Assembly (NCBI GenBank): GCA_002457735.1
Contig: NTKO01000001.1
Span: 1 to 64,000 of the forward strand
Reading direction: 5' to 3'
From: Bacteroidetes bacterium MED-G13
Lineage (GTDB): Bacteria > Bacteroidota > Bacteroidia > Flavobacteriales > Flavobacteriaceae
Length of the DNA: 64,000 bases
Each line of letters begins with the position of its first letter. Position 1 is the first letter of the stretch. A program made the position numbers and the translations under genes. Positions 9,428-43,099 of the stretch are shown in pieces. The notes beneath the pieces were generated by a model, which had not been told where the DNA came from, did no database searches, and saw only the letters and a list, made by a program, of their open reading frames with translations.

Positions 9428-10566
9428 AATCGGGAAATTGCCTTCTTAATATTAGCTGTAGTGTTACACAATGATATTCTAATATATCCTTCCCCATTTG
9501 TTCCAAATATTATTCCAGGAGCAACGAAAATTCCGAATTTTTGAAGAAGATTATCAACAAATTCTTTTGATGAAATCGACTTATTAATTTTTGCCCAAAC
9601 AAACATGCCAACATTATCCTTAGAAAAAGTACAGCCTAGTTTTGATGTAAGTTCCCAAACTAATTCACGTCTTTCTTTATATTTCATATTTAGTTTCTCA
9701 AACCAATCATTATTTTGAGACAATGCATGAGCAGCACCCATTTGAACTGGGTAAAACATGCCAGAATCTATATTACTTTTAACCTTCAATATATTTCTAA
9801 TAAAAGTGGAATTTCCGATAACAAACCCCACTCGCCAACCAGCCATATTGTATATTTTACTCATTGAGTTTAACTCAATACAATTTTCCATTGCACCAGA
9901 AATACTCATAATACTTAGGGGATTGTCATTTAAAATAAAGCTGTATGGGTTATCATTAACTATTAATATGTTATTTTCTTTTCCAAATTGAATAATTTTT
10001 TCAAATAACTTTAATGATGCTGTTTGTCCAGTTGGCATATTTGGGTAATTAACCCACATTATTTTTACTTTACTTAAATCCAACTGTTTTAATTTACTAA
10101 AATCTGGTTCCCAATTATTTTTTTCGGTTAGATCATAGTGGATTATTTTATTTCCCATCAATTTTGTGATAGAGGAATAAGTAGGATAGCCTGGGTTGGG
10201 GATTAAAACAGAATCATCATCATTTAAAAAAGACATTGATATATGAAATATACCCTCCTTGCTTCCAATTAATGGTAATATATTTTGATCAGGATGAAGA
10301 TCAACTTTATAATATTTTTTATAAAAAGAAGAAATCTTTGCACGTAATTGGTAAATACCAGAATAACCCTGATACTTATGAGCATGTTTTTGATTCAAAC
10401 TTTTTACAACTGTTTTAATTGAATTTTCAGGTGGCAATAAATCTGGGCTTCCAATTCCTAAATTAACAATATCTTTTCCTTTATCAATTAAGGCTTTTAC
10501 CTCTCTTAACTTCTTGGAAAAATAATATTCAGAAATATGTTCTAACCTTTTGGAATTATCAATCAT
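9424..10566 (-). CDS. PLP-dependent aminotransferase class I/II, probably aromatic amino acid transaminase
   Basis: 380 aa, fold-type I. The PLP-binding lysine is K237 in NSMSKIYNMAGWRVGF. The PNPGYPTYSS and VNYPNMPTGQ motifs and the terminal GEGYIRISL arginine strand are present. Its position between pheA and tyrA points to transamination of phenylpyruvate and 4-hydroxyphenylpyruvate, the last step to Phe and Tyr. Sequence alone cannot exclude an LL-diaminopimelate or alanine/aspartate specificity. It overlaps pheA by 8 bases and tyrA by 4. Confidence 0.9.
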   Translation of the reverse strand: MIDNSKRLEHISEYYFSKKLREVKALIDKGKDIVNLGIGSPDLLPPENSIKTVVKSLNQKHAHKYQGYSGIYQLRAKISSFYKKYYKVDLHPDQNILPLIGSKEGIFHISMSFLNDDDSVLIPNPGYPTYSSITKLMGNKIIHYDLTEKNNWEPDFSKLKQLDLSKVKIMWVNYPNMPTGQTASLKLFEKIIQFGKENNILIVNDNPYSFILNDNPLSIMSISGAMENCIELNSMSKIYNMAGWRVGFVIGNSTFIRNILKVKSNIDSGMFYPVQMGAAHALSQNNDWFEKLNMKYKERRELVWELTSKLGCTFSKDNVGMFVWAKINKSISSKEFVDNLLQKFGIFVAPGIIFGTNGEGYIRISLCNTTANIKKAISRL

Positions 10567-11389
10567 TTTTTGAGTTTTTATATTCTCCTAAAATTTTAAA
10601 ATCTTTTGCCATAATTTCTATTATTGATTTTGCTTTAAAATAATCATCTAATGATTCAAATGTGATATCTACAAAAAAAGAATATCTCCATGGAGTTTCA
10701 ATTTTTGGCATTGACTGAATTTTAGTCAAATTAATTTTACAATCGCTCAAAACATTTAGTATTGTTGCCAAACTCCCTCTTTTATGATCCAATTCAAATT
10801 TAATAGAAGCCTTGTTAAATACAGATTTACTATTTATAATTGATCTTTTGAGAACAACAAATCTTGTTTCATTATTTTTAATTGTCTGAATATTTTCAGC
10901 TAATACATTTAAACTGTATAGATTAGATGCTAATTCGCTAGCAATTGCAGCTCTACCTTTAACATTGCTAATATAAATTTCTTTAGCAGAGAGTGCAGTA
11001 TCGGTGTCCTCAACTAATTTAATTTTTGGATGTTTTTTAAAAAAATCTCTACACTGAAGTAATGCCATTGGATGTGAGTGGACTTCTTTAATATCATCAA
11101 TGGACTGGTTTTCTAGAGCTAATAAATTATGAGAAATTTTCAAATAATACTCTCCAACAATGGAAAGATTATATTCATCAATCAGTGCGTAATTAGGAAT
11201 GATTGATCCTGCAATAGAATTTTCAATCGCCATTATTGATGCATCAGATTTTCCTTCGGCAAGATGTCTTGACATCATTTCAAAAGTTAAGAATTCATCA
11301 ATATCGATATTACTACCATAATATTCATTCGCCACAATATGGTGAAATGAACCTTGTATTCCTTGTATTCCTATATTTTTTTTACTCAT
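10559..11389 (-). CDS. pheA: prephenate dehydratase
   Basis: 276 aa from the ATG at 11389 (MSKKNIGIQGIQGSFHH). It converts prephenate to phenylpyruvate. The catalytic NNETRFVVL motif is present, and residues of about 190-270 form an ACT regulatory domain (ELDHKRGSLATIL), the usual Phe-feedback site. The ESRP motif of classical enzymes reads KIETPWRY here. An in-frame ATG exists at 11425, but it would run through the attenuator hairpin, so 11389 is preferred; homologues also begin close to the GIQG strand. It is the first gene after the phe leader, with its ATG directly after the terminator T-run. Confidence 0.95.
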   Translation of the reverse strand: MSKKNIGIQGIQGSFHHIVANEYYGSNIDIDEFLTFEMMSRHLAEGKSDASIMAIENSIAGSIIPNYALIDEYNLSIVGEYYLKISHNLLALENQSIDDIKEVHSHPMALLQCRDFFKKHPKIKLVEDTDTALSAKEIYISNVKGRAAIASELASNLYSLNVLAENIQTIKNNETRFVVLKRSIINSKSVFNKASIKFELDHKRGSLATILNVLSDCKINLTKIQSMPKIETPWRYSFFVDITFESLDDYFKAKSIIEIMAKDFKILGEYKNSKND

Positions 11390-11416: not shown

Positions 11417-11446
11417 AGATTTCATTAATATTATGATTACATATTA

Positions 11447-11471
11447 TAGTCTCTACCTATTCTTAGAATAG
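11447..11471 (-). promoter_or_regulatory. phe attenuator segments 1 and 2 (pause hairpin and antiterminator strand)
   Basis: Segment 1 is the small hairpin CTATTC-TAA-GAATAG (11471-11457) within the last leader codons. Segment 2 is GAGACTA (11453-11447), which begins in the leader stop codon TAG. A ribosome stalled at the Phe/Tyr codons would leave segment 2 free to pair with 11417-11411. A ribosome reaching the stop codon would cover it and let the terminator form. Confidence 0.75.
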
Positions 11472-11518
11472 AAAAAGAAATAATAAAATCCAAAATTTAT
11501 TGTAATCAAATTGGTCAT
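11453..11518 (-). CDS. phe/tyr operon leader peptide (attenuation peptide)
   Basis: 21 codons, ATG at 11518 and TAG at 11455-11453. The peptide begins MTNLITIN and continues FGFYYFFFYSKNR, so five Phe and three Tyr fall within nine residues. This is far beyond chance and is the signature of a ribosome-stalling leader, like enterobacterial PheL. It is followed by the alternative antiterminator and terminator at 11453-11390 and then pheA. It lies 42 bases after the gapN stop codon. The Phe/Tyr mix matches the operon, which makes both amino acids. No good Shine-Dalgarno sequence is visible. Confidence 0.88.
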   Translation of the reverse strand: MTNLITINFGFYYFFFYSKNR

Positions 11519-11522
11519 GGCA

Positions 11523-11530
11523 CGAATGTA
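11523..11530 (-). promoter_or_regulatory. possible -7 element of the phe operon (TACATTCG)
   Basis: TACATTCG on the minus strand differs from TAnnTTTG at one position, and T-rich sequence lies about 20 bases upstream. The same TTCG variant occurs before tig. It ends four bases before the leader ATG, so the transcript might start at or next to the ATG. The match is imperfect and an upstream promoter inside gapN cannot be excluded. Confidence 0.35.
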
Positions 11531-11560
11531 TATAATATTTATGAGAAAATAAAAAATTGA

Positions 11561-40279: not shown

Positions 40280-40843
40280 TTAGCTCTTGACCCAATTCTC
40301 AATTAATTTTTTTCCATGGGGAGTTAGTATTGATTCCGGATGAAACTGCACACCTTTTACATCATATTTTTTATGTCTAATTGACATAATTTGGTTGTTG
40401 TTATCTATTGATGTGATTTCTAAATCTTCAGAAATTGTATCAACAACCCATGAATGATACCTTGCAGCAAGGAAGTTATTTTTGATTCCTTTAAAAATTA
40501 ATTCATCCCCAACACAGATATTTATTTCAGTTGAAACACCATGAAAAACATCATCTAAGTTTTTAAGAGTTCCTCCGTATACCTCTGCAATTGCTTGTTG
40601 ACCCAAACATACTCCTAGAATACTTTTCGTTGACCCATATTTTGAAATAACTTCTTTTAAAAGACCAGCTTCATCAGGAATTCCAGGACCAGGAGAAAGT
40701 AAAATTTTAGGAAAGTTTACAATATCTTCTATTATAAACTTATCATTTCTAAACACAGACACATCACAATTTAATTCCTTTAACAAGTGAACCAAATTAT
40801 AAGTAAAACTATCATAATTGTCTATAACTAATACTTTTTTCAT
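40280..40843 (-). CDS. trpG: anthranilate synthase glutamine amidotransferase subunit
   Basis: 187 aa, class I glutamine amidotransferase. The catalytic cysteine is in LGVCLGQQAIAE and the His-Glu pair in VQFHPESILTPHGK. LLSPGPGIPDEAG is the oxyanion region. It gives ammonia to TrpE. In some bacteria the same subunit also serves p-aminobenzoate synthase; no pabB is in the window. It overlaps trpE by 4 bases. Confidence 0.96.
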   Translation of the reverse strand: MKKVLVIDNYDSFTYNLVHLLKELNCDVSVFRNDKFIIEDIVNFPKILLSPGPGIPDEAGLLKEVISKYGSTKSILGVCLGQQAIAEVYGGTLKNLDDVFHGVSTEINICVGDELIFKGIKNNFLAARYHSWVVDTISEDLEITSIDNNNQIMSIRHKKYDVKGVQFHPESILTPHGKKLIENWVKS

Positions 40844-42243
40844 ACCTGTAAATTATTTGCTATTTCTATTGACTTTGTTAGGGCGTTTAATTTGTTATAA
40901 ACTTCCTGTAATTCATTTTCATTTTCTGACTTATCTACAATACCTGCACCCGCTTGCCAATACAAATAATTGTCTTTACTTAAAAAAGTTCTTATCATTA
41001 TTGCGTGATTATAATTTCCGTGGAAATCCAATAAACCAATTGCTCCTCCGTAGTATCCCCTATTTGTTTTTTCATATTTTTCAATTAAATTCATTGCCAT
41101 ATGCTTTGGCGCACCGGACAGGGTTCCTGCAGGAAAAGTGTCAGCAATAATTTTTAAATTATTATTAAGGGTTTCTAGTTCACCTGTTACTTTACTTACA
41201 AGGTGTATAACATGAGAGAAATACTGTACTTCTTTGAACTTATCAACTCTAACAGTTGAACAATTTCTACTTAAATCATTCCTCGCTAAATCTACTAGCA
41301 TTACATGCTCACTTCCTTCTTTTGGATCATTGATTAGTTGCTTGGCAAGTAATTTATCTTCAGCTTCATTTCCGGTTCTCTTGAAAGTTCCAGCAATTGG
41401 ATGGATTTCAGCAAACTTATCATTGATTACTAATTGAGCTTCTGGTGAGCTACCAAATATTTTATAACTACCAAAATCAAAATAAAATAAATAAGGTGAT
41501 GGATTTATACTTCTTAATGCTCTATAGACGTTAAAATCATCACCCTTAAATTGTTGTGAGAACCTCCTGGACAAGACTAATTGGAAAACATCTCCTCTTT
41601 TACAATGTTGCTTCGCATCAGTAATATGCTTAAGAAATTCTGTATCTGTTAAATTTGATTTGATTTTATCAATTGATTCAAAGCTGAAATTGTAGGAATT
41701 GGATACTTTAATAAGCTGGTATACTTCATCGATATTATTACTTTCATCCAAAGAATGACAAAAAATATATGCTTCATTTTTGAAATGATTAATGGCAATT
41801 ATATTTTTATATACGCCGTAATACATTTCTGGGATTTTAATGGAATTTTCTTTTTCTATAATATTTACATCTTCAAAATATTGTACAGCATCATAGGATG
41901 TAAATCCAAAAAGACCATTATTTATAAACGAAAATTTACTTTTTTCAACTTTAAATGAATTAATGAAGTTCTGCAGCTCTTCAATTACATTTTTTTTGGA
42001 ACAAGGAATATTTTTATATGAATTGTTTGGCAATTTTGATGAAATAATATTATTGGAAACTTCAAATGAAGCAATCTGATCAAAACATATATAAGAGAAG
42101 CTATTATTAATGGAATTATAATCACTGCTCTCTAATAATAGACTTTTTGGGAATTTATCTCTTACCCTTAAATAGATACTAACAGGTGTTATTGTATCAA
42201 CTAAAAAATTTTTATATGTGGTTTTTAATTCTATTTTTTCCAT
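40840..42243 (-). CDS. trpE: anthranilate synthase component I
   Basis: 467 aa. It converts chorismate and ammonia to anthranilate. C-terminal chorismate-binding motifs: RRFSQQFKGDDFNVYRALR, PIAGTFKRTG, EHVMLVDLARNDL, FPAGTLSGAPKHMAMNLIE and YGGAIGLLDF. The N-terminal region carries a LLESSDYNS stretch equivalent to the Trp-binding LLES motif, so feedback inhibition by Trp is likely. First gene of the trp operon. Its ATG is preceded by a stem-loop (42250-42278) and the leader-peptide attenuator. Confidence 0.97.
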   Translation of the reverse strand: MEKIELKTTYKNFLVDTITPVSIYLRVRDKFPKSLLLESSDYNSINNSFSYICFDQIASFEVSNNIISSKLPNNSYKNIPCSKKNVIEELQNFINSFKVEKSKFSFINNGLFGFTSYDAVQYFEDVNIIEKENSIKIPEMYYGVYKNIIAINHFKNEAYIFCHSLDESNNIDEVYQLIKVSNSYNFSFESIDKIKSNLTDTEFLKHITDAKQHCKRGDVFQLVLSRRFSQQFKGDDFNVYRALRSINPSPYLFYFDFGSYKIFGSSPEAQLVINDKFAEIHPIAGTFKRTGNEAEDKLLAKQLINDPKEGSEHVMLVDLARNDLSRNCSTVRVDKFKEVQYFSHVIHLVSKVTGELETLNNNLKIIADTFPAGTLSGAPKHMAMNLIEKYEKTNRGYYGGAIGLLDFHGNYNHAIMIRTFLSKDNYLYWQAGAGIVDKSENENELQEVYNKLNALTKSIEIANNLQV

Positions 42244-42310: not shown

Positions 42311-42343
42311 AAAAAAAAAAGCTTATCGTGATGATAAGCTTTT
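42311..42343 (-). terminator. trp-operon attenuator terminator
   Basis: On the minus strand AAAAGCTTATC and GATAAGCTTTT form an 11-bp stem with loop ATCAC, then a run of ten T. Its 5' half and loop contain CATCACGA (42333-42326), which can pair with TCGTGATG (42376-42369) at the end of the leader peptide to form the antiterminator. A-rich sequence on the other side means it could also terminate plus-strand transcription. Confidence 0.9.
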
Positions 42344-42368: not shown

Positions 42369-42376
42369 CATCACGA
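42369..42376 (-). promoter_or_regulatory. trp attenuator antiterminator strand (segment 2)
   Basis: TCGTGATG on the minus strand spans the last sense codon (TCG) and stop codon (TGA) of the trp leader peptide. It is fully complementary over 8 bases to CATCACGA in the terminator. A ribosome stalled at the Trp codons, about 20 bases upstream, would leave this segment free; one that reaches the stop codon would mask it. Confidence 0.78.
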
Positions 42377-42427
42377 AATAGGTATTTCATGCATCCACCA
42401 CCATTTATTTGTAATTCTTTTAATCAT
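42371..42427 (-). CDS. trpL: trp operon leader peptide
   Basis: 18 codons: MIKRITNKWWWMHEIPIS, then TGA. Three consecutive TGG codons in so short a frame, followed by a terminator with an alternative pairing partner and then trpE, identify a ribosome-mediated attenuation peptide equivalent in role to enterobacterial TrpL. ATG is at 42427, 35 bases after the stop codon of the plastocyanin-like gene on the same strand. No Shine-Dalgarno sequence is visible; the start may be at the very 5' end of the mRNA. Confidence 0.9.
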   Translation of the reverse strand: MIKRITNKWWWMHEIPIS

Positions 42428-42462: not shown

Positions 42463-43035
42463 TTATTTTTTAATGAATCTTTTGTACGAGGTAGATTCAC
42501 TGTTAGAAACTTTTAAAATGTAAACTCCTGTAGCAAATTCAGAAATATCTATCGATAAACTCTCTGCATTTAAATCATAAGATTTTTTCATAACAACTTT
42601 ACCTAACATATTGTAAATCTCCAGGTCAGCATCTTCATTAAGTGTATTTAACTTAATGTTCACTATATCAAATGCAGGGTTTGGATAGACATCAAGCTGT
42701 ATAATATTATAATCATTTACAGAAAGTGGATCCGTAACATTTACTACACCATACATTGATGCATGAGGACTACATGTAAAAGTAGTACTGCCAACGAGGT
42801 TGAATGTATGTGAGAAAACATGTCCTTGTCCATTATAACCACTATCAAAAGATTCGACACCTCCAGTTGATATTAAGTTGTGTGTTCCTGATCCCCAAGT
42901 CCAAACAACTGTATCCCCAATTTCAATATTGATTGTTTGATTCGTACTTTGCATATTCCAAGGATATTGATGCGTTGTCTGGGAAAATACAAATGAAGAA
43001 ATAAGGAAAAATAAAAAAAGTAATTTTTGTTTCAT
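42463..43035 (-). CDS. T9SS-secreted plastocyanin/cupredoxin-like protein
   Basis: 190 aa from the ATG at 43035, which begins a clean signal peptide (MKQKLLFLFFLISSFVFSQ); an ATG 17 codons upstream has no signal sequence. Residues 20-100 are a small cupredoxin: the copper ligands would be the His in GTHNLIS and the Cys-His-Met of TCSPHASMYG, typical of type 1 blue copper. Residues 110-190 are a T9SS sorting domain (LDVYPNPAFDIVNIKL, ATGVYILKVS, ending KRFIKK). It probably carries an electron-transfer or copper-binding domain to the cell surface. It lies alone between the tRNA genes and trpL. Confidence 0.85.
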   Translation of the reverse strand: MKQKLLFLFFLISSFVFSQTTHQYPWNMQSTNQTINIEIGDTVVWTWGSGTHNLISTGGVESFDSGYNGQGHVFSHTFNLVGSTTFTCSPHASMYGVVNVTDPLSVNDYNIIQLDVYPNPAFDIVNIKLNTLNEDADLEIYNMLGKVVMKKSYDLNAESLSIDISEFATGVYILKVSNSESTSYKRFIKK

Positions 43036-43099
43036 AATATTATTGTTTTGTATAAAGTTAACAATTTCTGTTCCAAATCTTAGCAATTAGTTAAAACAA

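Follow-up and report, generated by a model that had tools for sequence, protein, structure and literature searches.

Predicted leaderless initiation at the trp and, probably, the phe attenuator leader peptides of a flavobacterium

The 64,000-nt stretch of DNA from the small marine flavobacterium Bacteroidetes bacterium MED-G13 analyzed here (the window) contains a trp and a phe operon, both of which are likely to be controlled by attenuators whose leader mRNA would start at the leader ORF's AUG or 1 nt ahead of it. For trp, where the arrangement appears to hold throughout the genus, leaderless initiation is very likely, while for phe in the window species it is probable at a lower level of confidence. 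The transcription starts, translation from a 5′-terminal AUG and the attenuation response are what we infer from the comparisons described below.

By their sequence anatomy, both loci are textbook ribosome-mediated attenuators. On the minus strand, the trp leader ORF (42371-42427) encodes MIKRITNKWWWMHEIPIS and a stop codon directly before trpE (anthranilate synthase component I; 40840-42243), which heads a TrpE, TrpG, TrpD gene order. The trp antiterminator strand TCGTGATG (42369-42376) spans the leader stop codon, and its pairing with CATCACGA (42333-42326) excludes the 11-bp stem (42343-42333/42327-42317) of an intrinsic terminator hairpin (42317-42343) that is followed by a T-run. The phe leader ORF, also on the minus strand (11453-11518), encodes MTNLITINFGFYYFFFYSKNR and a stop codon directly before pheA (prephenate dehydratase), with genes for an aminotransferase, prephenate dehydrogenase and DAHP synthase/chorismate mutase following in that order. 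Here the antiterminator strand GAGACTA (11447-11453) opens with the final base of the leader stop codon, and its pairing with TAGTCTC (11417-11411) excludes the intrinsic terminator at 11416-11396, formed by the arms AGTCTCGAA (11416-11408) and TTCGGGACT (11404-11396) and again followed by a T-run. The longest pheA frame opens at 11425, within the attenuator terminator; translation more likely begins at the ATG at 11389, immediately 3′ of the T-run, giving a pheA gene of 10559-11389 on the minus strand. The leader regions fold better than shuffled sequences, with z = −7.0 (trp) and −3.1 (phe). Rfam at gathering thresholds returned no curated leader family in the window, its matches there being two tRNAs only.

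Both leaders carry runs of codons for the end product of their operon. In the proposed mechanism, scarcity of charged tRNA would stall the ribosome on the WWW (Trp) or FYYFFFY (Phe/Tyr) codons, the antiterminator would form and RNA polymerase would proceed into trpE or pheA. With plentiful charged tRNA, the ribosome would instead reach the stop codon and cover the antiterminator strand, so that the terminator would form.

The initial annotation had placed a −7-like element exactly four bases before each leader ATG and had read the two peptides as possibly translated from leaderless mRNAs. Both strings and both spacings are present on the minus strand just as described: TATATTTA (42439-42432), AGAA and the ATG (42427-42425) for trp, and TACATTCG (11530-11523), TGCC and the ATG (11518-11516) for phe. 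Each element fits TAnnTTTG at five of the six fixed positions, with one mismatch apiece. In Flavobacterium johnsoniae the −7 element TAHHTTTG occupies positions −12 to −5, with transcription start sites (TSSs) 4 or 5 nt beyond it (PMC6847099), so a gap of 4 nt between element and ATG would put +1 on the A of the AUG. From this register we predict essentially no 5′ UTR (about 0 nt) at either locus, each leader ORF having its own ATG as its predicted TSS. We propose that a sigma-A −7 element is so placed that the usual TSS, 4 to 5 nt beyond it, falls on the AUG and the leader mRNA begins 0 to 1 nt before the leader ORF; because TSS and AUG would then coincide, the ribosome would have to initiate on a 5′-terminal AUG. 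No clear TTG of a −33 element (TTTG/TTG) was visible by eye at the expected spacing for trp or phe, and this element is weak genome-wide in F. johnsoniae too (PMC6847099). The remark that neither leader has a Shine-Dalgarno sequence was correct but carries no information, mRNAs of Bacteroidota being without one in any case (PMC6847099).

Taken alone, the window makes a weak case. Of its 2317 ATGs (both strands, 30% GC), 1.1% are preceded at precisely this spacing by an element that fits at five or more of the six positions, and finding two in two is suggestive, though it was noticed post hoc. The elements might instead be chance matches in A+T-rich DNA, with transcription coming from farther upstream, within or before the co-directional neighbors, and the peptides translated from ordinary leaders. 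At 30% GC, an element fitting at five or more of the six positions lies 0 to 8 nt before 13% of all window ATGs, and the upstream genes are close and co-directional, so that an upstream promoter may read through. In favor of the leaderless reading, only 35 bp (trp) and 42 bp (phe) lie between the leader ATGs and the stop codons of the upstream genes. The gene upstream of the trp operon (42463-43086, minus strand) encodes a protein with a Por secretion tail and a copper-binding domain; since it ends 35 bp before the leader ATG, the trp promoter has to lie almost against, or partly inside, its 3′ end. What decides against chance matches is the comparison with relatives: upstream of both leaders, the element is retained where the leader peptide is kept, so that the refuting condition set by the initial annotation, loss of the elements from such relatives, did not occur for either operon.

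For trp, we gathered the sequence upstream of trpE in the genus, the family, a few other families and a named set, and chose the leader ATG by the peptide alone (that nearest 8 codons before the first WW), ignoring the promoter. A perfect TAnnTTTG lies within 40 nt of the ATG in 177 of 197 distinct flavobacterial trp leaders, compared with 5% of shuffles. The gaps of these perfect elements fall into separate groups, with none at 0-3 nt, 20 at 4, 33 at 5, none at 6, 30 at 7-10, 3 at 11-13, 86 at 14-22 and 5 at 23 or more. Ten further loci have a 5/6 element at 4-5 nt, bringing the total at this spacing to 63, and the same pattern is seen among loci with a single possible in-frame ATG (22 at 4, 32 at 5, none at 0-3 or 6). 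Such a floor at 4, with occupancy of 4 and 5, is expected from the published TSS register provided that the AUG can fall on the TSS and cannot precede it. Retention of the elements in relatives, the excess of perfect matches over shuffles and avoidance of gaps 0-3 and 6, which is unexpected for random matches, leave the chance-match explanation very improbable. All ten trp leaders of the window's genus have the element at a gap of 4-5 nt, as does at least one member of 31 of the 99 genera in the first set. The trp leaders L010, L161 and L169 have an extra upstream in-frame ATG whose frame crosses the −7 element (MISIF...); automatic annotation might wrongly take this ATG as the leader start.

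The 4-5 nt spacing is enriched at trp leaders relative to ordinary genes. When the same element was sought in 40 pieces of these genomes, each 20 kb long, the 73 genes that had a perfect copy (the whole of this small control) included 5 at a gap of 4-5 nt, versus 53 of the 177 trp leaders (Fisher p = 3e-5, a value that overstates independence as the loci are related). The rate in this control is in line with those published for leaderless mRNAs, 5.5% in Flavobacterium psychrophilum (PMC9723704) and, for 5′ UTRs under 10 nt, 3.7% in Bacteroides thetaiotaomicron (PMC7366714). Three of the 73 ordinary genes have a gap of 6, and thus the vacancy at 6 among trp leaders is not due to the promoter search.

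Base composition around the start is consistent with the predicted 5′ ends. In leadered trp loci (gap 14-22 nt), the fourth base after the element is a pyrimidine in 81% and the fifth an A in 69%, which, judged by its position, is an initiator at the expected TSS. The same signature is found in the class with a 5-nt gap (pyrimidine at +4 in 88%, A at +5 in 85%), where it predicts a leader of one base, and in the class with a 4-nt gap the A at +5 is that of the ATG itself. In addition, leadered loci have 65-84% A at positions −8 to −1 of the ATG, akin to the Kozak-like preference of the phylum. This A tract is missing from the 4-5 nt class at −4 to −2 (43, 22 and 17% A), DNA that would there be untranscribed. 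These data also bear on the idea of a true TSS 6-7 nt past the element, under which transcripts of the 4-nt class would start too late to contain the whole AUG, and a second, longer transcript would serve for the peptide. At individual promoters the choice of TSS can shift over a few bases. However, the F. johnsoniae TSS peak is at 4-5 nt, the pyrimidine-A initiator occupies +4/+5 in the leadered and 5-nt classes alike, and none of the 195 trp loci that have an element places its ATG before +5. We therefore regard a shifted start as very improbable, more so even than chance matches.

Comparison of about 200 related trp operons suggests that the putatively leaderless arrangement arose repeatedly in flavobacteria. 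On a trpE tree of 135 rows, built by a quick search under a simple model, a minimum of 14 changes of spacing state is needed, 9 of these forced by well-supported branches, compared with 39.5 changes for shuffled labels; such counts cannot separate gain from loss. The window's genus (nine trpE rows, all at 4-5 nt) is sister to, or nested among, leadered relatives with gaps mostly of 12-19 nt (Tamlana and others). The genus Flavobacterium holds both states, the gap being 4 in F. frigidarium and F. kayseriense and 17 in F. xueshanense, whose peptide is nearly identical. Genome streamlining does not fully account for the spacing, as genomes of 3-6 Mb also have gaps of 4-5 nt; the larger-genome lineages sharing it include cultured Maribacter, Allomuricauda, Cellulophaga, Mesonia and some Flavobacterium. 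Cultured strains at 4-5 nt are, for example, F. frigidarium DSM 17623, Mesonia algae DSM 15361, Maribacter polysaccharolyticus and Zunongwangia mangrovi. As a separate observation, TrpE was found in 9 of the 21 genomes of the window's genus (G000-G020) and hisG in none of the 6 tested, which suggests patchy amino-acid auxotrophy, although genes may be missing only because the assemblies are incomplete.

The phe leader presents a different picture. The block AAATATTATnTACATTnG is kept across the genus, and thus the phe element is correctly identified. The gap is 16-19 nt in congeners, and only the window species and its nearest relative (G010) have 4. Alignment shows that a deletion of about 13 nt common to these two sets the phe ATG at exactly 4 nt. 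In the wider family phe gaps are mostly near 10 or 15-19 nt, with gaps of 4-5 nt and a plausible element in a few small-genome lineages (L137, L144, L296). An automatic scan also returned 5/6 phe elements at gaps of 1-5 nt in congeners (e.g., L035, L038, L043, L044, L046, L047), which were discounted after alignment as A+T-rich chance matches 3′ of the conserved TACATTAG. The phe promoter of the family mostly has a non-consensus −7 element, TAC[TA]TTAG, usually then C, in place of TAnnTTTG (L188-L216, L277-L295); the window has TACATTCG (11523-11530).

These findings leave room for a reading in which only trp is leaderless, and phe uses the same element but starts translation elsewhere, for instance at an in-frame TTG (codon 4, 13 nt after the element), or has a shifted TSS and a short 5′ UTR as in congeners. 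The 16-19 nt gaps of all other phe leaders in the genus, the prevailing gaps in the family and the non-consensus element of nearly all relatives favor it, while the conserved block, the exact 4-nt register created by the shared deletion and the recurrence of 4-5 nt spacing in the three small-genome lineages speak against it; on balance, we consider it unlikely. Leaderless initiation at both operons thus remains our preferred reading, with trp and phe differing in history: the trp arrangement would be common to the whole genus, whereas phe leaderlessness, which has less support, would be a local and recent change, plausible only in the window species and its closest relative. The proposal of leaderless translation fared differently at the two loci. 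At trp it is upheld by a spacing that is conserved in the genus, recurs in about one-third of sampled genera and has a sharp floor at the predicted TSS; at phe the spacing is not conserved. Weighing against the leaderless reading are the mismatch in each window element, the rarity of the 4-nt phe spacing in the family, and the rarity of leaderless mRNAs in Flavobacterium psychrophilum (5.5% of mapped mRNAs, PMC9723704).

Leaderlessness is not a general trait of the amino-acid attenuators of the family, a possibility rejected by the gaps at phe and at his. The his leaders have gaps mostly of 7-9 or 17-19 nt, with two at 5, and thus predicted leaderlessness is concentrated in trp, while very short leaders are common in his. 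Before hisG, the leader peptides with HHH runs (L377-L404) often have a gap of 7-9 nt, for which the predicted 5′ UTRs are only 3-5 nt. The initial annotation had further argued that a leaderless start would help the timing of attenuation by letting a ribosome load at once. As a requirement this is unsupported: most relatives keep the same attenuator with predicted leaders of 3-18 nt, so the timing argument is not needed.

Leaderless attenuator peptides are already known as a kind. In Sinorhizobium meliloti the Trp attenuator RNA (trpL/rnTrpL) begins at the leader ORF ATG (PMC7298713). It resembles the flavobacterial loci in this 5′ end and in transcription attenuation of trpE, but belongs to another phylum and promoter type, and peTrpL and rnTrpL also act in trans. 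TrpL1 (MFAHSTRNWWWTAHPAAH) of Streptomyces lividans, LeuL and other actinobacterial attenuator leaders are leaderless (PMC8079986), as is the attenuator peptide of the Corynebacterium diphtheriae ilvB leader (PMC5784534). TrpL1 shares with the flavobacterial leaders a WWW run before trpE, and its TSS at the leader start comes from transcriptome data. However, 17-33% of mRNAs are leaderless in Actinobacteria generally, so such leaders are unremarkable there, whereas in flavobacteria, at about 5%, the trp leaders stand out. Mycobacteria have leaderless polycysteine short-ORF attenuators (Canestrari et al. 2020, as cited in PMC13236596), likewise leaderless sensor ORFs controlling a biosynthetic operon; as the citing paper describes them, they work by translation attenuation of cysteine genes and not through competing transcription terminators. 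Closer to the present loci, PMC9723704 describes 5′ elements that are conserved among Flavobacteriaceae at pheA and hisG, and proposes leader-peptide attenuation at structured 5′ elements upstream of amino-acid operons in F. psychrophilum. We found no report of leaderless attenuator peptides in Bacteroidota in the open-access literature; the phylum and the discrete spacing classes appear to be new.

The empty spacing classes raise a broader idea, which we put forward tentatively and hold to be somewhat short of an even chance: that flavobacterial leader ORFs use discrete initiation modes, namely a 5′-terminal AUG (predicted UTR 0-1 nt), leaders of 3-6 nt, and A-rich, Kozak-like leaders of 10-18 nt, that a leader of about 2 nt would not be tolerated, and that trp attenuators switched modes many times via small indels between promoter and AUG. 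If true, this mode switching would amount to a natural experiment on how leaderless messages are initiated where, as in this phylum, Shine-Dalgarno sequences are not used. Bacteroidota are regarded as having few leaderless mRNAs, yet about one-third of flavobacterial trp attenuators appear leaderless, with repeated switches and empty spacing classes. Both spacing states occur within Flavobacterium, which would make leaderless initiation without a Shine-Dalgarno sequence, and its effect on attenuation, directly testable.
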